Virus record (IMG/VR): IMGVR_UViG_3300035126_000903
Coordinates: 62,001 to 126,000 of that record
Source of the DNA: a virus
Reading direction: 5' to 3' (one strand)
Length of the DNA: 64,000 nt
A program made the translations under genes and the position numbers. The notes beneath the pieces were generated by a model, which ran no database searches, was not told the origin of the DNA, and was given only the letters and a program-made list of their open reading frames with translations. This document shows, piece by piece, positions 7,240 through 25,358 of the stretch. Every line of letters begins with the position of its first letter. Position 1 is the stretch's first letter.

Positions 7240-7830
7240 TTATTTACATATGAAATCACTTAATTTTGTAGATTTTGGCGCCACATTATAAAAGTAATAA
7301 CACTCATTAATATTCAATTTTTTAGATTGAATTGTTTTATAAAACCCAGTTGGTATAGTAGCACCACCAGGTACTTTTTTAAGTGGTGGGTTAAAATCTA
7401 TTCTAATATATACATAAATATCATCGGATTTCTGTCTCAAATTTCTTTCATATTCTTCCAACTCTTTCCAAGGACCTCTATTTAGAGATTGGTGTTGAAG
7501 AGCGGAGTTTAGATAAGTAAATGTTTGTTTTAACAGGTTTATATCACAACCAAATGCTGCAGCAGGAGCCATATGCCCTTTGTCCCATTCGTTACTTACA
7601 TAATCACCATTATCGGATGTATAATATTCTTTTTCTTTATAAAAATCCAACCCCTTACGAGATACTGAATTTTGGGCGCACTGAACGGTGTATTTAACCC
7701 ATTTTGGTTGTTCCAATACTTCGGAGTACACCATTTCAAATATAGGGGATTTGATATATACACTATCTCGCTTTTGTGCGAAAATAGATAGTGGTAATAC
7801 AAATAGTAATAATAATAATAATTTTTTCAT
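7240..7830 (-). CDS. secreted DNA/RNA non-specific endonuclease (DRGH type)
   Basis: The protein has a clear signal peptide (MKKLLLLLLFVLPLSIFAQ) and a beta-beta-alpha-metal nuclease core with DKGHMAPAAAF in place of the usual DRGHMAPAAD, giving the catalytic histidine. The downstream helix YLNSALQHQSLNRGPWKELE carries the metal-binding asparagine typical of NucA/Serratia nuclease relatives. At 196 residues it is short for the family and lacks part of the C-terminal region. The signal peptide points to the host periplasm or outside, where it could degrade host or competitor DNA or scavenge nucleotides. Confidence 0.88.
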   Translation of the reverse strand: MKKLLLLLLFVLPLSIFAQKRDSVYIKSPIFEMVYSEVLEQPKWVKYTVQCAQNSVSRKGLDFYKEKEYYTSDNGDYVSNEWDKGHMAPAAAFGCDINLLKQTFTYLNSALQHQSLNRGPWKELEEYERNLRQKSDDIYVYIRIDFNPPLKKVPGGATIPTGFYKTIQSKKLNINECYYFYNVAPKSTKLSDFICK

Positions 7831-9251: not shown

Positions 9252-11511
<2,260 letters not shown>

Positions 11512-16720: not shown

Positions 16721-17066
16721 TTTTCAACTTTACATTTTCTCTAATGAATTCAACAAAGGTTGGGGTTTTAGTTACATTCTCTTGAACAATAGCTTTTAGA
16801 TGCTTTTTATATAAATAAGCCAAAAATGGTATTAACTCTTTTACCATTTTATCCTTATCCGAGTCTGTAACAGTTTTGTGTTTTTGGGGGGCAGATTTAA
16901 CTAATTTTTGGTATGATGCCGTAGTTCTACCACCCAAGTATTTATCTTGTGGTGAGTAAGCAATTGGTACATTATAAATTGCATTATGTGCTTGGCTTCT
17001 TAAATTATCCTTCGTTATTACCAAAGCCTCTTTTATGGGTTTATTTTCATTACATCCACAGCTCAT
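16689..17066 (-). CDS. hypothetical protein, 125 aa
   Basis: Begins MSCGCNENK, a short cysteine motif, followed by a helical protein with IPFLAYLYKKHLKAIVQENV and a lysine-rich end. CGC at the N-terminus recalls the motif in the 59-residue protein at 14140-14319. It overlaps the holin start by four bases. Function unknown. Confidence 0.6.
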   Translation of the reverse strand: MSCGCNENKPIKEALVITKDNLRSQAHNAIYNVPIAYSPQDKYLGGRTTASYQKLVKSAPQKHKTVTDSDKDKMVKELIPFLAYLYKKHLKAIVQENVTKTPTFVEFIRENVKLKNGKLLLKKKG

Positions 17067-17497
17067 TTTCTTTCCCCTTTGTGTTTATCAATTTTATCCA
17101 ATATTTCATTTAATAATCCCACTTTAATATATCCAGCCATTGAAGCGTTTTTAAGTGCGCTGATTAATTGGAATACCATAAATGGAACAATAATTACTTC
17201 ACTTAACCAACCTGTTCCTGCAAACCCTCTTTCAATCATTAAAACAGCTGATAATATCATTATCCAAGCAGCAGTGTTTTTTAGTATATCCAAAGCCCGT
17301 CTTGTTTTAAATCCTTCCCGCTTTGTTCCTGCAATCATACCAAATATACCATCTAAAAACATCACACCAATTACAGCAATATATTGGTCTTGATTATCCA
17401 TATATAGTTGCATGAAATAACTACATATGAAAGCGCATGCAGCGGATACTGATGTTATGGTTAATACAATTGGGTCGGTTATTGTAGTGTATTTCAT
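17063..17497 (-). CDS. holin (phage holin family 4-like)
   Basis: A 144-residue membrane protein with three to four hydrophobic segments: VLTITSVSAACAFICSYFM, YIAVIGVMFLDGIFGMIAG, AAWIMILSAVLMIERGF and VIIVPFMVFQLISALKNAS. FLDGIFGMIAGTKREGFKTR is the signature loop of toxin-secretion/phage-lysis holins (D-x-x-x-G between helices, then basic residues). It would form the lesion that frees the endolysin. It lies in a compact lysis region with two coiled-coil membrane proteins and a GH19 endolysin. Confidence 0.82.
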   Translation of the reverse strand: MKYTTITDPIVLTITSVSAACAFICSYFMQLYMDNQDQYIAVIGVMFLDGIFGMIAGTKREGFKTRRALDILKNTAAWIMILSAVLMIERGFAGTGWLSEVIIVPFMVFQLISALKNASMAGYIKVGLLNEILDKIDKHKGERK

Positions 17498-18083: not shown

Positions 18084-18683
18084 TTATTTAAGTAATGTAT
18101 AATATTCTTTAAAGTGCTTAATACGGTCAGGTAAACCAATTGTTCCACCATTAACTCTTTTAGTAATTGCTGTTACACTTGCATCATCCGCACCTTTATC
18201 AGCTAATGTGTTTAATCCGTTGCTTGACCAAAACCAAGCAGCTGATAATAGCGGATATTTAGTTGCTACTAAATCAGGATTTGCGGTAATATCTTCGTTT
18301 ATTGCTTTACCAAATGCAGCGTAATTATTTTTACCTGTCAATTGAATGTATCCTCTACCTCTAAATTTGTATCCATCTCCACTCGCCTCATCACCATTGC
18401 CCATTCTGCCACCATAAACCAAGTTAGCAATCTTTTCAGGTTTTCTTTCATATTGTAAAGCCTTTGCTTCGGTTGGGAAATACTTTTTAAATATACCCAA
18501 TAAACCCTTTGCACCATAGTTTAGGTTTTCTTGAACTGCTTTGAAACCAGCACTTTCATGTCCACATTGTGCCAAAAAGTGAGATAATCTCAACGCTGTA
18601 TCGATTTTGAATGTTGTCATTACTGACGGAATTTGAGTGATAACGGCATCAGGAACATGCCCTTTGAGTTTGTTAATATCCAT
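18084..18683 (-). CDS. GH19 chitinase-like endolysin
   Basis: A 199-residue glycoside hydrolase family 19 lysozyme: LRLSHFLAQCGHESAGFKAV provides the first catalytic glutamate (HES), then ENLNYGAKGLLGIFKKYFP, and the family hallmark KFRGRGYIQLTGKNNYAAFG. WFWSSNGLNTLAD follows. Phage members cleave peptidoglycan glycan strands. No signal peptide, so it depends on a holin. It is the first gene of the lysis region. Confidence 0.93.
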   Translation of the reverse strand: MDINKLKGHVPDAVITQIPSVMTTFKIDTALRLSHFLAQCGHESAGFKAVQENLNYGAKGLLGIFKKYFPTEAKALQYERKPEKIANLVYGGRMGNGDEASGDGYKFRGRGYIQLTGKNNYAAFGKAINEDITANPDLVATKYPLLSAAWFWSSNGLNTLADKGADDASVTAITKRVNGGTIGLPDRIKHFKEYYTLLK

Positions 18684-19138: not shown

Positions 19139-19540
19139 TTATTTTTTAAACGCTGATTCTAATGATTTTCTTAATGCGGAACTAAATTCTGTTCTTTCAA
19201 ATGGTAGGTTTTCATCCTGTAATTGTAGAATCGTTGAAGAAACTGATGTTTTTGCACTACCTTCCCCAAACAACTCCTTTCCATCCATTTTAATTTTTGT
19301 TTTTACAATTGTTTTCTTTTGCTTAAACTCAAAAGGACCAACCCTAATACCTTTGGTTGGTGCCTCGATTGATAATATTTCTACCTCCACCGGCTTTCCA
19401 TTATCACATAGTGAATATTTATCATTTACCAATTCAGTAACGATTTGGTTTGCACCATAAGTTAGTTTTGTATCAGAAACCCCGTTCATATGAGCAAGTG
19501 TGATAACGCTTGAAATAAAATAACATAAAATTGTATCCAT
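19139..19540 (-). CDS. exported hypothetical protein of the surface island
   Basis: A 133-residue protein with a weak N-terminal hydrophobic segment (ILCYFISSVITLAHMNGV) that may be a signal peptide, then a beta-rich domain (VEVEILSIEAPTKGIRVGPF, KKTIVKTKIKMDGKELFGEG). It follows the lectin gene by 12 bases. The GxRVGPFEFKQKKTIVKTxI pattern looks like a sandwich domain binding another surface component. Function unknown. Confidence 0.6.
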   Translation of the reverse strand: MDTILCYFISSVITLAHMNGVSDTKLTYGANQIVTELVNDKYSLCDNGKPVEVEILSIEAPTKGIRVGPFEFKQKKTIVKTKIKMDGKELFGEGSAKTSVSSTILQLQDENLPFERTEFSSALRKSLESAFKK

Positions 19541-19552
19541 TGTAATCCTTTT

Positions 19553-20530
19553 TTAATAAGTTAATGTTGATTGATTTGTAAATCCTGGTGATAATAAATA
19601 TAGATTAGTTGTTCCTCCATTCGTTGGTGTAAAAGTATAGCTAGATTGAGTGCCTGGTATTGAACTCCTTAAATCCCCCGTTCCCGTTGTTAAACTTGTC
19701 CATTGTGAGTTTGTAAATAATAAAGTTCTTTTTGTCCATCCCAACCCATTTATTCTTCTTGCTATTGTATAAATATCGTTTATTGTAATTGTATTATCAC
19801 CACTTACCTCATATTTGTGATAGTGATGTGATTTGATTGGTGTTCTTTGTAAAACAATATCATCAATTCCTACAAAATCAGCAGAAGATAGATTTGAGGT
19901 TGTGGTTGGAATTACTACTTCAATATACCATTCAATAGAGGGGTTGGTAGGTAAACTAAAAGAATATTGCCCACTAGCATTTGTTATTGATATCGCTTCT
20001 AAAGTCCAAGGAGTAGTAGTAACTATATATTCAAATTCGAGTACATAAGGTAAGGATACATTTGGTAAATCGTTCCACCTACCGCCGCTAACAAATTGAG
20101 CATAATCTTCGTTTCCCGCATTATTAGGTTCACCCCCGTTCCAGTTTGTATAGGTTACTGCTTCATTTGTAACCCATCGCCATTGCCCTTCCACTGCTTC
20201 ATCGGTAAAACCAATCCACCCCGAAGGCCAGGTGTTAAAAACAAATGTATTTTCAGCAGCCGATGTGATTGTTACTAAATGCCCTCCCATATTGGCACAT
20301 GCCGTTCTTGCATTAGTCCAAGTCATTGAGCTGGTAGAACGATAATACGAGTGCCCATTATAATTGGTTTGCGATGTAAATCCAGTTAATACAGGCGTAG
20401 TTCTTTTAAATAGTCTTACTGTTATTCCCGATACTCCTATATTGTTTTCAGTCCTAATTAAACCTGAATGTGTAAAGGTTTGTCCAAATAACGAAATAGG
20501 TAATAATAAAAATAATAATAATTTTTTCAT
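19553..20530 (-). CDS. secreted C-type lectin with dockerin-like segment
   Basis: The start is the ATG at 20528-20530 (MKKLLLFLLLPISLFGQ, signal peptide), which overlaps the stop of the barrel gene; a longer frame from 20614 lies inside that gene. Residues about 55-168 form a C-type lectin domain: WTNARTACANMGGHLVTI, WIGFTDEAVEGQWRWV, NWNGGEPNNAGNEDYA (EPN, mannose-type calcium site) and WNDLPNVSLPYVLEFE. Only one cysteine is present, so the usual disulfides are missing. A later SGDNTITINDIYTIARRING segment resembles a dockerin calcium loop. It lacks a T9SS tail. Likely binds a surface glycan. Confidence 0.85.
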   Translation of the reverse strand: MKKLLLFLLLPISLFGQTFTHSGLIRTENNIGVSGITVRLFKRTTPVLTGFTSQTNYNGHSYYRSTSSMTWTNARTACANMGGHLVTITSAAENTFVFNTWPSGWIGFTDEAVEGQWRWVTNEAVTYTNWNGGEPNNAGNEDYAQFVSGGRWNDLPNVSLPYVLEFEYIVTTTPWTLEAISITNASGQYSFSLPTNPSIEWYIEVVIPTTTSNLSSADFVGIDDIVLQRTPIKSHHYHKYEVSGDNTITINDIYTIARRINGLGWTKRTLLFTNSQWTSLTTGTGDLRSSIPGTQSSYTFTPTNGGTTNLYLLSPGFTNQSTLTY

Positions 20531-21753
20531 AACATTAATTTTGTTCCAGTTAAAACTTGCCAATTTAAAAATGTTTGATTTAATTGATAAACTCCTGAAA
20601 AACTTACAGTCCATTTGAATTTATCAGTTACTTTCAAATCTGTGTTTACCATTGGAATTATCAACAAACCACTTTTATACCATTGACCTGCATAGAAATA
20701 AATATAGGGAGAATATACAGCAAGCCCTAAAAAATTTACACCAATTGATTTTCCACCCTTAAAGTTTGTAAATCCACCACCAATCAAAGACCAATTTCTA
20801 AAAGTATTTTTATCTATCTCACCCAAAGTAAAGGTAGTTCCCCCCATTAAAGTTACTTTATCTATTTTTTGAGCATTGAGTAATGATGCGGTCAAAAACC
20901 AATTATCCTTAAAATTAGTCATATATGATGTAGAAAATATACCCATATACCCCTTAAACTTTAATGAACCATATCCCGATAAGTTAAGTATGTTTTGCCC
21001 CGTCTGATAGTTTATGTTTATACCTTTGATAAATGTTTGGGAGGTATTGACATGGGTCAAAGAAGTATTAAATCTAAAATTATCATTACCTTTCTTTGTG
21101 ATATTTGAATCGTTTCGTATTATAACAATATCCCCAGTAGCGATTAAAGCACCATTGGATACTTTGGAAGAACTTTTACCACCTTTACCTCCACCACCAC
21201 CTTCACCATTATTTTCACTTTCACCACCACTTGCAGTTTGTTGGTTTTTATCATCAACTGGTGTTATTTCACCACCACCCTCGGATGAGCTGCTGTTATT
21301 ATCATTATTAGCCCTACTACCGCCATTTCTCGGTGCGGGTGGGGGTGTAGGAACACTACCAACAGAACTTCCAATAGAACTAGCCATAGATACTACTGAG
21401 GATATGTTTGCTACACCATTCGCTGTAACACTACCTATGAAGTTTGTAACATTGTTTGATTCCGCAACTCCTTCGGATGCGCACGGATTAGCACCTGGTG
21501 GTAAAGCATCTCTAATGGATTGAACCCATTGTTCATATGCCCCCGCACTTAATTCAGCATAAGTAAATATTCTATATTGCCCCGCAAAGAACATTGTAAC
21601 TTCAGAACTTTGTGTTGATAATTGAACACTTTGAGTTCTACCATTACATGGGTTAATATAAGAATAGGTGAAACTTTGAGCTTTTACACTCAAAACTCCA
21701 CCTATTATGAATAATAATACTAATAAATGTTTTTTACCAACCATTTTGCTCAA
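20527..21753 (-). CDS. predicted outer-membrane beta-barrel protein with Gly/Ser-rich linker
   Basis: A 408-residue exported protein with a signal peptide (KHLLVLLFIIGGVLSVKAQ). Residues 27-95 are a small domain with a cysteine pair (INPCNGRTQSV, GANPCASEG). A low-complexity region follows (about 130-200, with SSSSEGGGE and GEGGGGGKGGKSSS). Residues about 205-408 consist of alternating aromatic strands (GYGSLKFKGYMGIFSTSYMT, NWSLIGGGFTNFKGGKS, LAVYSPYIYFYAGQW) typical of an outer-membrane barrel. It lies between the CsgG-like and lectin genes. The barrel may anchor or export a partner. Start 21753 or 21744. Confidence 0.65.
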   Translation of the reverse strand: MSKMVGKKHLLVLLFIIGGVLSVKAQSFTYSYINPCNGRTQSVQLSTQSSEVTMFFAGQYRIFTYAELSAGAYEQWVQSIRDALPPGANPCASEGVAESNNVTNFIGSVTANGVANISSVVSMASSIGSSVGSVPTPPPAPRNGGSRANNDNNSSSSEGGGEITPVDDKNQQTASGGESENNGEGGGGGKGGKSSSKVSNGALIATGDIVIIRNDSNITKKGNDNFRFNTSLTHVNTSQTFIKGININYQTGQNILNLSGYGSLKFKGYMGIFSTSYMTNFKDNWFLTASLLNAQKIDKVTLMGGTTFTLGEIDKNTFRNWSLIGGGFTNFKGGKSIGVNFLGLAVYSPYIYFYAGQWYKSGLLIIPMVNTDLKVTDKFKWTVSFSGVYQLNQTFLNWQVLTGTKLML

Positions 21754-22426
21754 GACGCTTTACGAGGTTCATTGTCGCAACCTCCAAAGCCTTCTGAGTA
21801 GCAATACCAACGGTTGATTGGTCGAATCCCATTGTTGGATTCTTAAAATACCCTTCACCAAATTGAGTTGATTGTCCTTGTCCAGACGCAACTATAAATT
21901 GTGAATTTTCTACATTAACTAAACGAATTTGAATACCCATAATTGTGGTATTTGTTTTTTTCAATTTACCTTTATCGTAGTTTTCTGCGTATGAAACTGA
22001 AAAATCATAGATTTCGGCATAAACAATATATTTGGGTAAACGAATACCCTGCATTTTAAGTTTTGTTTTACCATCATCTAAACCATCAATCTTTTTTTCC
22101 CACGCATCCAACATTTGATTTACAACAGCATCTTTTTCTTCGGTAAACTCAAAACGATTAGTATATAGTAAATTTTCAATAATACGATTAGATACACCTA
22201 AACCAAGTCTTTTTTCTCTTAATTCGGGGAAAGTTTCCCAGAGTTCTTTGTTTACATTTAACTTTGAAAGTTGAAGCGTTTGCTTCTTACCTGTATAAGT
22301 AGAGATAGATTCTAATGTTCTATCTGTCTTTTCAAAATCAGCTTGATATTGAGTAGTTGAAATGCTAGATTTACAACCCACCAATAAAGCAAAGCTTACG
22401 AATGGAATAATAACTATTTTTCTCAT
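21734..22426 (-). CDS. CsgG-like outer-membrane secretion lipoprotein
   Basis: A 230-residue lipoprotein: signal peptide with lipobox LLVGC at residues 14-18. The body follows the CsgG/HfaB layout: GLGVSNRIIENLLYTNRFEF (GxGxxxxxxxxLxxxxRFxxxE), then LPKYIVYAEIYDFSVSY, IMGIQIRLVNVENSQFIVAS and IATQKALEVATMNLVKRL. CsgG forms a nonameric outer-membrane channel that secretes curli subunits, and CsgG-like genes are known from T4-like marine phages. No curlin-type repeat protein is seen here, so its cargo is unknown. ATGA overlap with the upstream gene. Confidence 0.82.
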   Translation of the reverse strand: MRKIVIIPFVSFALLVGCKSSISTTQYQADFEKTDRTLESISTYTGKKQTLQLSKLNVNKELWETFPELREKRLGLGVSNRIIENLLYTNRFEFTEEKDAVVNQMLDAWEKKIDGLDDGKTKLKMQGIRLPKYIVYAEIYDFSVSYAENYDKGKLKKTNTTIMGIQIRLVNVENSQFIVASGQGQSTQFGEGYFKNPTMGFDQSTVGIATQKALEVATMNLVKRLEQNGW

Positions 22427-22821
22427 TCTTCACTCTCCTGCTCTGCCTGCTTAGCTCTCAACCTTTTCATTCTTTCAGCTGGAGTTTCTTTCTTTTCTTC
22501 AATTGGTGCTGCTGCAGGTTGTGCGGCAGGTTGAGCTGCTGGTGCTGCTTCTCTGATTGTTTCTTTTTCTCTGATTATAGTAGTTCCACCACCACCGCTT
22601 GAAGTATTACTTTGGTTATTGTTTTCTAAGTTTAGATTAATAACAGGTTGTGCTGCTGGTGCAACTTGCTCCGTTTTTGCTCCCTCTTCATCGTTATTAC
22701 CCCCACCAAATAGGGTTGTGGAAATCCATACACCACCACCCGTAACTACAGTGGCGAGTGTTCCTACGATAGTTTTCTTGAGTCCGCCCCAAGTACCATC
22801 ATTTTCTGTCTCTTCTGCCAT
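22423..22821 (-). CDS. Ala/Pro-rich membrane protein upstream of CsgG-like gene
   Basis: A 132-residue protein with one hydrophobic segment near the N-terminus (IVGTLATVVTGGGVWISTTLFGG is split by glycines), then a low-complexity region rich in Ala, Pro and Gln and a charged C-terminal helix (PAERMKRLRAKQAEQESEE). AAAAAGGAG precedes the start. Its stop overlaps the start of the CsgG-like gene, implying a joint role, perhaps as an inner-membrane or periplasmic partner. Function unknown. Confidence 0.62.
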   Translation of the reverse strand: MAEETENDGTWGGLKKTIVGTLATVVTGGGVWISTTLFGGGNNDEEGAKTEQVAPAAQPVINLNLENNNQSNTSSGGGGTTIIREKETIREAAPAAQPAAQPAAAPIEEKKETPAERMKRLRAKQAEQESEE

Positions 22822-22836: not shown

Positions 22837-24738
22837 TTAGTATTTAATTATTTTATAAGTTTTTTGCTTCTCATTGGTGGTTAATCTTACAAAATAGAAA
22901 CCAGGCTTTAAGTCGCTAACATTGATTGTTTTCGTAACTATTTCATTTTGATTTACAAAATCTCTACTATTATAATAAGATTTACCCATATAATCGTAAA
23001 TTTCGTATGTTAGATATCCCCAATCAGTTTGGAAATAATCTATATTTAAGACATCAACTACTGGGTTAGGATATACTCTAAACCCATTTACTAATTGGTT
23101 TACCAATTCTCTTGCCCGTCTACCATTTACAACAGTAGCATCTACGGGTGAAGGTATGATATTTAAATCGGTTGCTTTATCACTACCAGCTGCTTTGTTG
23201 AAAATCTTAATAGGTGATTGTTCCCAATTTTGATTTAAAATATCAAACTTAAATGAGAATTGTTGTGTTGGGTTGATAATAAGCGATGGAGACATTTTAG
23301 ATTCATGTCCACCCCAAACTATTTCACCTGGCTTATTTGATAAGAAAGAGTTCCAAGCACTTGCTTCAGGCCCAACACTCACACCTGTGAATTTAAAGAT
23401 TGCTGGGTCATATTTTAATCCTAATTGTGCTGCACCTACTTTATTTCCGTGTGTAATAAAAGTAACATTTACATCTACTGAATTATCTTCTGAAATAGTT
23501 AATTTAGGTATTCTAAATTGAACTGAATCTTGGATATTTTGATAAATAGTACCTTCATCTAAAACATAAGATGTTCCATTAGTAGGGTTATTTACCCTTT
23601 GAATTTGGAATGATACATTATTTAATCCAGTATTTGTTACATCCCCCAAAACATATCCAATATAAGATAATGAACCTAAACCATTAATAGGAACATCAAC
23701 ATTTGTAGTTCCAATAATTGAAGATTGGAAGGTGTTTGGGTTGGTTATAATCGTATTGTATTCAGAGGGGGTGTAATATCTAACATTGTATTCGTTAGCA
23801 ACAGCAGGCGACCAGGTTGTTCTGCCGGTTGCCAAACGATTAAATATCAAATAAGCATCTGCTACTGATAGGGTTGAACTGCGGTTTACATCACCTTGCT
23901 GAAACTCATACGATTGAGCAGTATCAGCGTAAATACTCATATCTGATAACCTATAAGCATCGGTAATATTGATAGCAGAATTATCTGATAAAGTATCCAA
24001 ATTTGATACTAACTTAACATTATAAAAAGATGTATCGTATGGAATTTTAATACTTACCAAACCAACAGCATCTGTTAAAAATCTACCACCACGAGTATAT
24101 GTTTGTTCTGATTTTAATTTGTAATCATATGCGAAAGGCATATCGGCCGCAGGTGTTCCATTCACATTTGTTAATGTTACAGGAAATGTTAATGTATCCA
24201 TTTTAAATGCACCACCATAGTTGTGGGTTAATAATACATTATCAATACCACCAATTGTAGTTGCGATATTAGAATACGATGGATTTCCAATTACCTTGAT
24301 AGAATCAACAGATGATGGATTAAAACCAACTGCGTGTGGAAGTTTAACCTCAAACACAGCACCATCCGGCCAATCAAATACAGCGGAAGTTCCAGTATAG
24401 ATAGCTGTTGCATTTACCCAACCTGGCTGACTATAGTATGAACCATATTTTGTTCCAATTGATGTTGCGGAAGGGCCCCATAAAACAATAGGTTGTTTGA
24501 ATGAAGTAGTTGGATAGAAAAATCTAACCTGAAAACCAGCATAATTGGTTGCTGTTGGGTTATGATAGTGTAAATAAATCACAGTTGTATCATTTAAGAT
24601 ACTACCCAAAGTAAACACCGTATCAACTAGAAAATGCGGTGAGTTACTGTTTGGAGATGTTAATACTTCCGTTCTACCATTTTGTGCGAATAAGTTAAAT
24701 GGTAAAGTTAAAGCAAGTAATAAAAGTATTTTTTTCAT
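22837..24738 (-). CDS. T9SS-targeted surface protein with dockerin- and cohesin-like domains
   Basis: A 633-residue protein with signal peptide (MKKILLLLALTLPFNLFAQ). Order of parts: beta-rich N-terminal region (20-265); dockerin-like segment around 280 (FQQGDVNRSSTLSVADAYLI); cohesin-like domain about 415-545 (VDVNVTFITHGNKVGAAQLG, LKYDPAIFKFTGV, FSFKFDI); and a C-terminal type IX secretion sorting domain from about 555 (FRVYPNPVVDVLNI, YEIYDYMGKSYYN, VSDLKPGFYFVRLTT, TYKIIKY). The tail is used by Bacteroidota to export proteins across the outer membrane and anchor or release them. In a phage it implies exposure on the infected cell. First gene of the surface island. Confidence 0.88.
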   Translation of the reverse strand: MKKILLLLALTLPFNLFAQNGRTEVLTSPNSNSPHFLVDTVFTLGSILNDTTVIYLHYHNPTATNYAGFQVRFFYPTTSFKQPIVLWGPSATSIGTKYGSYYSQPGWVNATAIYTGTSAVFDWPDGAVFEVKLPHAVGFNPSSVDSIKVIGNPSYSNIATTIGGIDNVLLTHNYGGAFKMDTLTFPVTLTNVNGTPAADMPFAYDYKLKSEQTYTRGGRFLTDAVGLVSIKIPYDTSFYNVKLVSNLDTLSDNSAINITDAYRLSDMSIYADTAQSYEFQQGDVNRSSTLSVADAYLIFNRLATGRTTWSPAVANEYNVRYYTPSEYNTIITNPNTFQSSIIGTTNVDVPINGLGSLSYIGYVLGDVTNTGLNNVSFQIQRVNNPTNGTSYVLDEGTIYQNIQDSVQFRIPKLTISEDNSVDVNVTFITHGNKVGAAQLGLKYDPAIFKFTGVSVGPEASAWNSFLSNKPGEIVWGGHESKMSPSLIINPTQQFSFKFDILNQNWEQSPIKIFNKAAGSDKATDLNIIPSPVDATVVNGRRARELVNQLVNGFRVYPNPVVDVLNIDYFQTDWGYLTYEIYDYMGKSYYNSRDFVNQNEIVTKTINVSDLKPGFYFVRLTTNEKQKTYKIIKY

Positions 24739-24759: not shown

Positions 24760-25104
24760 TTATTCCTCATTTGACGAAATCGAAACCCCATCTTCTTCAT
24801 CCATTTTTTGAACAAGCATCTTATCTCTGTCCTCATTTGAGAACCAAAAATCTACAACTTTGTTCAAATTACCAACGAAAGCACCCAAAAGAATTAATAA
24901 TAACTCTTTCCAAGCTTCTTCTATTGTTGCTTTAAACATCACTGCTAAAACAATTCCAAAAACAATAAAAAAGAATGTAAATAAAATCAATAAAGTAATT
25001 TTCCAACGATTTGATTGCATCGTTTGGAGCATGAAGTTGAACCTTTGATCGTTTTCAACTTTTTGAAAATCTTCGTTATATAAAAGTTTACTAAGAAGTC
25101 CCAT
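24760..25104 (-). CDS. two-helix membrane protein, 114 aa
   Basis: Two hydrophobic segments (ITLLILFTFFFIVFGIVLA and ELLLILLGAFVGNLNKVVDF) with a soluble N-terminal helix and an acidic tail (EEDGVSISSNEE). The pattern LLLILLGAFVGNLNKVVDFWF recalls phage holin-like or DUF-type hypothetical proteins. It overlaps the 84-residue membrane gene by one base, so the two may act together. Confidence 0.6.
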   Translation of the reverse strand: MGLLSKLLYNEDFQKVENDQRFNFMLQTMQSNRWKITLLILFTFFFIVFGIVLAVMFKATIEEAWKELLLILLGAFVGNLNKVVDFWFSNEDRDKMLVQKMDEEDGVSISSNEE

Positions 25105-25358
25105 TATTCAACCCCACCTTTATCGCAATTGCAATCTTTTTTCTTAAAGATTTTATCTGCGGATGCTAAACCTAAAGCACCAAACGCAAGAGCAGCAACG
25201 GCGTTTACGAGTGAATCGGCTGGAGCAATGTGGGATTCAGTAAACTGATTATGGTACATTGTTATACATAAGGTTAGGGCAGCCATAATTCCCACAAACC
25301 TCTTTGATGAAAATCCTCCCTTTTCGTCTTGGAAGATTTCAGTAAAAAATCTTTTCAT
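25104..25358 (-). CDS. small two-helix membrane protein, holin-like
   Basis: The 84-residue product starts KRFFTEIFQDEKGGFSSKRF, then has two hydrophobic helices (VGIMAALTLCITMYH and LVNAVAALAFGALGLASAD) and a cysteine-rich end (KKKDCNCDKGG). Phages of Bacteroidota often have such an FxDExGxxSSKRF + two-helix protein, usually unnamed or called holin. AAAGGAC precedes the start. It is distant from the endolysin, so the holin name is tentative. Confidence 0.6.
   Translation of the reverse strand: MKRFFTEIFQDEKGGFSSKRFVGIMAALTLCITMYHNQFTESHIAPADSLVNAVAALAFGALGLASADKIFKKKDCNCDKGGVE

Follow-up and report, generated by a model that had tools for sequence, protein, structure and literature searches.

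A cohesin scaffold with a type IX secretion sorting domain in a conserved gene cassette of phages related to Flavobacterium phage immuto

A 633-amino-acid (aa) protein of the phage DNA analysed here combines a Sec signal peptide, a dockerin-like module, a cohesin domain and a type A C-terminal sorting domain of the type IX secretion system (T9SS), and its gene opens a conserved multi-gene cassette that includes lectin-type proteins with signal peptides and a dockerin-like end. The window, meaning the whole 64,000-nucleotide stretch analysed, covers positions 62001-126000 of a virus record of 135,671 bp. There is about an even chance that the cassette encodes a T9SS-exported cohesin scaffold that displays dockerin-ended adhesins on the infected cell. 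The features of the scaffold gene, in window coordinates, are as follows:

22837..24738, minus strand: T9SS/cohesin/dockerin-like scaffold gene, 633 aa (open reading frame with ATG start, profile matches)
24685..24738, minus strand: predicted Sec/SPI signal peptide, residues 1-18 (sequence; Q19 begins the mature protein under the Bacteroidetes Q-rule)
23623..24006, minus strand: dockerin-like module, residues 245-372 (hhalign to the C-terminal module of the adhesin-slot protein; Dockerin_1 in 13/30 homologues)
23155..23520, minus strand: cohesin domain, residues 407-528 (PF00963 above cut-off; Foldseek with the whole-protein model)
22843..23076, minus strand: T9SS type A C-terminal sorting domain, residues 555-632 (TIGR04183 and PF18962 above cut-offs)

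The scaffold protein and its C-terminal tail

The initial annotation had read the end of this protein as a standard T9SS type A tail, and each of the strings it quoted is found in the 633-aa open reading frame. The tail is real: the TIGR04183 profile search that had been proposed as a check, when run, matches residues 555-632 (of 633) at 42.4 bits against a cut-off of 23 (E 5e-11), and Por_Secre_tail (PF18962) matches the extreme C-terminus at 47.5 bits (cut-off 27). In the AF2 model calculated from a 30-sequence family alignment (mean pLDDT 77, mostly 75-90 in the tail), residues 554-632 form seven strands, consistent with the seven-stranded Ig-like C-terminal domain of T9SS cargo described in PMC11285876. 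Besides being encoded in 13 close IMG/VR relatives, the scaffold was followed through a diverse set of 30 viral homologues with identity down to about 26%, in which PF18962 matches all 30 members and TIGR04183 and Cohesin PF00963 match 29 each. The dN/dS of the tail is about 0.09-0.26 among pairs with unsaturated dS. Because all 30 homologues keep the tail and it is under purifying selection, its presence is beyond chance, with no decay. A short tblastn search for T9SS tails in other phage records returned one match, in a 1.8-kb unannotated record, which is uninformative.

At the other end of the protein, the N-terminus MKKILLLLALTLPFNLFAQ is judged to be a Sec signal on sequence and a hydrophobicity rule, as had been claimed; on the same basis the signal peptide is MKKILLLLALTLPFNLFA followed by Q, which places the Q-rule site between FA and Q, and Q19 is nearly invariant in the family alignment. 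With a signal at one end and a sorting domain at the other, export through the host T9SS is the best inference for the scaffold.

Between these ends, the previously suggested cohesin part stands, and the dockerin part holds as dockerin-like, without a Dockerin_1 match in the window protein. Residues 407-528 match PF00963 at 32.5 bits (cut-off 24.1), and cellulosomal cohesins are among the best Foldseek matches of the whole-scaffold model (TMt 0.75-0.79). Dockerin_1 (PF00404) gave no match at E<1 in either the scaffold or the lectin protein of the window; it matches 13 of the 30 scaffold homologues weakly, with a best E of 0.0013. Of the two calcium-binding F-hand repeats that characterise a type I dockerin, the first is degenerate here, and in the loop of the second the residues D283, N285 and D294 are invariant in the family. 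Residues 245-372 may thus be described as a divergent module that resembles dockerin. The N-terminal domain was also considered as a second cohesin, which is unsupported (hhalign probability 8%).

A conserved cassette with an exchangeable partner

In order of transcription, the window cassette consists of the scaffold, a 132-aa protein, a 230-aa lipobox protein, a 408-aa protein, a C-type lectin protein and a 133-aa protein. The genes other than the scaffold are listed below, together with two small membrane proteins on the upstream side:

22423..22821, minus strand: small hydrophobic protein, 132 aa (conserved cassette member, 58/61 loci)
21734..22426, minus strand: lipobox protein with predicted CsgG fold, 230 aa (AF2, Foldseek, lipobox VGC in the sequence)
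20527..21753, minus strand: exported protein, 408 aa (alignment; 61/61 loci)
19553..20530, minus strand: adhesin-slot C-type lectin protein (PF00059; dockerin-like C-terminal module)
19139..19540, minus strand: 133-aa protein, distant relative of the CsgG-fold lipoprotein (hhalign probability 93%; 61/61 loci)
24760..25104, minus strand: 114-aa membrane protein, sometimes adjoining the cassette (14/50 loci)
25104..25358, minus strand: 84-aa holin-like small membrane protein, often adjoining the cassette (32/50 loci), for which a holin role is suggested

Synteny was assessed in 61 IMG/VR loci with sufficient flank, many of them near-duplicates, so that the counts are not independent. Within this set the scaffold lies upstream of the lipobox gene in 58 loci, the 408-aa and 133-aa families follow the lipobox gene in all 61, and a dockerin-ended protein is present in 49. 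The three loci with no scaffold match (L073-L075) form a distant lineage, and one of them, L075, encodes near the cassette a 949-aa protein in which Por_Secre_tail and Cohesin fall just below the Pfam cut-offs.

The dockerin-ended protein is the variable part of the cassette. In the window it is a 353-aa open reading frame (likely start Met29) with a signal peptide, a C-type lectin match (PF00059, 63.5 bits) and no T9SS tail. Its C-terminal 125 residues are homologous to scaffold residues 245-372 (hhalign probability 99.5%, E 1e-22; the cohesin, as a control in the same comparison, reached 0.15%). In the slot proteins of the relatives the module usually ends 0-3 residues from the C-terminus, with a signal peptide ahead and no T9SS tail, and the region ahead of the module is exchanged: C-type lectin in the window and in phage immuto, PA14 in loci L012 and L020 and, over 41 representatives, Lectin_C in 20, PA14 in 14, Laminin_G_3 in six and GEVED in two. 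Dockerin_1 matches one of these 41 proteins.

For the 230-aa protein, the AF2 model (pLDDT 66) has as its best PDB match by Foldseek the CsgG structure 4uv2 (E 9e-8, probability 1.00, TM about 0.4); PelC and further lipoproteins with the CsgG fold come next. PF03783 (CsgG) is reached by one of 32 homologues (E 2e-4) and, even with the threshold relaxed to E 10, matches nothing on the virus record; a PDB profile search with the 230-aa family gave no matches. Transmembrane hairpins are not evident in this monomer model of pLDDT 66. Modelling therefore supports a predicted CsgG fold and leaves the designation of a curli pore unsupported; the lipoprotein may be periplasmic rather than a pore. Orthology to pelagiphage CsgG has no sequence support. 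Similarly, the 408-aa protein, which in the alignment begins with an F-x-Y-x-Y-x-(N/D)-P-C segment followed by a Gly/Ser-rich linker, shows no profile or pairwise relation to CsgF (PF10614), and its PDB profile matches are low-complexity matches; from its sequence, it also has a probable outer-membrane barrel.

A scan of viral contigs found 419 stretches that encode a relative of the 230-aa CsgG-fold protein. Two scans of bacterial genomes, pattern-based and of limited sensitivity, found none for the 230-aa protein and, with the scaffold family, a single MAG contig carrying the whole cassette. This 254-kb contig (CAIWBA010000291.1, locus L138), binned with uncultured Bacteroidetes, has its complete cassette adjoining tail-collar-like and endolysin-like genes and is probably a large phage contig within the bin.

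The virus record, its cultured relative and the host

The phage origin that had been assumed for this DNA is supported by the virus record itself and by the genes it has in common with immuto (vB_FspM_immuto, NC_055915), a cultured myophage of Flavobacterium sp. LMO8: replication genes, ribonucleotide reductase, GroEL, holin, endolysin, a glycosyltransferase cluster and the cassette. None of the annotated head and tail genes of immuto was found on the virus record, which may be a fragment. In the window, the phage GroEL lies at 9252-10874 on the minus strand (PF00118, 212 bits; 46% identity to that of immuto), and a holin (PF05105) and a GH19-type endolysin lie at 17063-17497 and 18084-18683, both on the minus strand and immediately downstream of the cassette. 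Directly upstream of it is a stretch of about 20 kb (25666-46104, minus strand), partly common to immuto, with genes for sugar biosynthesis, methyltransferases and glycosyltransferases. A DNA/RNA non-specific endonuclease with a Sec signal (7240-7830, minus strand; PF01223, 97.5 bits against 23) could degrade DNA that enters the periplasm; in immuto its homologue, gp012, immediately precedes the lectin gene. Outside the window, the same virus record encodes a second T9SS type A protein (G000:C1:9313-10869, minus strand, locus L002) of 518 aa, which matches PF18962 at 37.6 bits (cut-off 27) and is unrelated to the cassette scaffold.

Immuto gp013-gp019 make up the same set of cassette genes as in the window, annotated there only as 'lectin C-type', 'cohesin' and 'hypothetical'. 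The scaffold of immuto is two genes and that of the window one, at 28% identity, and the immuto lectin gene precedes the scaffold, whereas the window lectin gene follows the 408-aa family. Immuto gp014 carries a signal peptide, the N-terminal domain and the dockerin-like module; gp015 carries its own signal peptide, the cohesin and the T9SS tail, with cohesin and Por_Secre_tail both above cut-offs, as in the window scaffold. A single frameshifted gene is ruled out by the separate signal peptide of gp015 and by the same split in several IMG/VR relatives (e.g., L117, L121, L124, L126 and L130). Since each of the two products has a signal peptide, the halves would meet outside the cytoplasm, and fusion in one lineage with separate export in another is classic evidence that they work together. 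A cohesin and a dockerin-like module are the expected pairing of such halves, which would presumably bind each other.

Concerning the host, the tail had been taken to fix it as a T9SS-positive member of Bacteroidota. A T9SS-bearing host is indeed implied, but narrowing it to Bacteroidota goes further than the tail by itself allows, because the T9SS is found across the wider FCB group (see also PMC7468147). The Q-rule, by comparison, is reported to be specific to Bacteroidetes and not to extend to that wider group (Bochtler et al., PMC5837995), and Q-rule signal peptides have been noted earlier on P. gingivalis phage proteins (PMC10367356). The pattern [A/G/S/V/N]-Q occurs at the cleavage region in 28 of 30 scaffolds, in all 42 members of the 408-aa family and in all 41 scoreable slot proteins, as against 15% of open reading frames without a signal. 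These signal peptides, together with a cultured relative on Flavobacterium, make a Bacteroidota host very likely for the window phage.

A candidate display system, its alternatives and its relation to known systems

In the proposed mechanism, Sec would carry the scaffold to the periplasm, where SPI would cut between FA and Q, and the host T9SS would recognise the C-terminal domain and take the protein across the outer membrane. Outside the cell, the scaffold would form a cohesin-bearing, cellulosome-like platform, on which operon partners with the terminal dockerin-like module would dock by their modules and thereby be shown on the infected cell. The glycan-binding domains that these partners bring are exchangeable (C-type lectin, PA14, laminin-G, GEVED). 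For those partners that have no T9SS tail, assembly or export at the outer membrane could depend on the CsgG-fold lipoprotein and the proteins that go with it. The most likely purpose would be to remodel or shield the infected surface (superinfection exclusion) or to make the cell adhere to particles or to new hosts, with roughly equal odds for superinfection exclusion and for adhesion or aggregation. The sugar-biosynthesis and glycosyltransferase cluster beside the window cassette, with one also in immuto, fits surface remodelling. Points against the scaffold model are the degenerate first dockerin repeat, the lack of a Dockerin_1 match in the window protein together with the single match among 41 slot proteins, and the quality of the CsgG-fold model (pLDDT 66, TM about 0.4).

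A different reading of the shared module keeps the scaffold as T9SS cargo and takes the module as a phage-specific sorting tag for the CsgG-fold and barrel machinery. The operon would then amount to a separate, virus-encoded secretion system in which the T9SS protein serves as a component or as a cap. Most slot proteins have the module within 0-3 residues of their C-terminus, as expected of a tag; these proteins have no T9SS tail, few of them match Dockerin_1, and the CsgG-fold lipoprotein and probable barrel always adjoin. In the fused scaffolds, however, the module is internal and stands beside the cohesin, and the dockerin-type loop residues of the second repeat are invariant, so that a sorting tag is considered unlikely. 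Slightly less probable is a cassette for late lysis or for breaching the outer membrane, in which the exported proteins would weaken the envelope for lysis and the T9SS tail merely takes one of them to the outer leaflet. The proximity of lysis genes to the cassette in part of the family makes lysis the chief functional rival: the window cassette runs straight into the endolysin and holin genes, 19 of 50 loci have an endolysin homologue no more than about 7 kb away, 32 of 50 have the 84-aa holin-like family near the cassette, and phage CsgGF has earlier been proposed to act in lysis (PMC9004378). Yet a holin/endolysin pair of immuto is about 27 kb away (a further annotated endolysin lies at about 6 kb), and it is not obvious what interchangeable lectins and a cohesin scaffold would do in lysis.

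Two further explanations were weighed. Receptor-binding proteins could make use of lectin, PA14 and laminin-G type domains, and the cassette might accordingly encode virion components with chance Sec-like N-termini and an Ig-like C-terminal domain. This is highly improbable, given Q-rule signal peptides on nearly all of the scaffold, 408-aa-family and slot proteins examined, a tail above T9SS-specific curated cut-offs and the position of the immuto cassette in a replication and metabolism region, away from the head and tail genes. Type A T9SS proteins are abundant in Bacteroidota, which would suit the recent capture of a surface protein from the host without any role for the phage; the operon is nevertheless kept over deep divergence (identity down to about 26%), the tail is under purifying selection, and bacterial genome scans of limited sensitivity place the cassette only on one MAG contig, with tail-collar-like and endolysin-like genes, so that recent capture is scarcely credible.

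The proposed T9SS-exported scaffold with docked adhesins has partial parallels in known systems. Passages of Bellas et al. 2020 (PMC7468147) describe a Bacteroidetes phage with genes for type A T9SS cargo, one of them with PA14, and propose hijacking of the host T9SS with a role in competition or superinfection exclusion. Like the window scaffold, that cryophage cargo, a PA14-domain protein included, carries type A sorting domains, but in the same passages the genes (endoglucanase, GH39, PA14) are variable and single, belong to one 76-kb phage and are mentioned with no cohesin, dockerin or CsgG, whereas in the window family a single conserved scaffold gene forms part of an operon of several genes carried by large myophages. 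CsgG and CsgF were reported in marine myophages in 2020 and 2022 (PMC7029224, PMC9004378), and the csgGF genes of pelagimyophages and Melnitz likewise place a CsgG-fold lipoprotein in an export operon of large T4-like phages. The window cassette nevertheless shows no detectable sequence relation to that of HTVC008M (hhalign probability 4% to CsgG and 0.3% to CsgF), in which a curlin-associated gene is annotated and no T9SS or cohesin gene is. The cellulosomal scaffoldin/dockerin system also consists of a cohesin scaffold with exchangeable, dockerin-tagged surface partners, and its cohesin fold matches that of the window; in contrast, the present system is viral and T9SS-tagged, with lectin-type partners instead of cellulases, a divergent dockerin and predicted binding.

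No earlier description of the cassette, of a phage cohesin/dockerin scaffold or of a T9SS tail in immuto was found in the open-access literature searched. The conserved cassette and the scaffold architecture thus appear new, phage T9SS cargo and phage CsgG having already been published. If the model is true, phages use the host T9SS for a conserved modular surface complex and not for a stray cargo gene, and the cassette would connect the published puzzle of phage T9SS cargo with that of phage CsgG operons. Because the cultured pair of immuto and Flavobacterium sp. LMO8 carries the cassette, exported phage adhesins are directly testable. Relatives of the CsgG-fold gene occur in hundreds of environmental viral contigs (419 matching stretches), and it is tentatively suggested, at somewhat less than an even chance, that large Bacteroidota phages share a dedicated surface-display system, in which a T9SS cohesin scaffold, swappable dockerin-tagged lectins and virus-specific CsgG-fold machinery would give the infected cell an adhesin coat of the phage's choosing.
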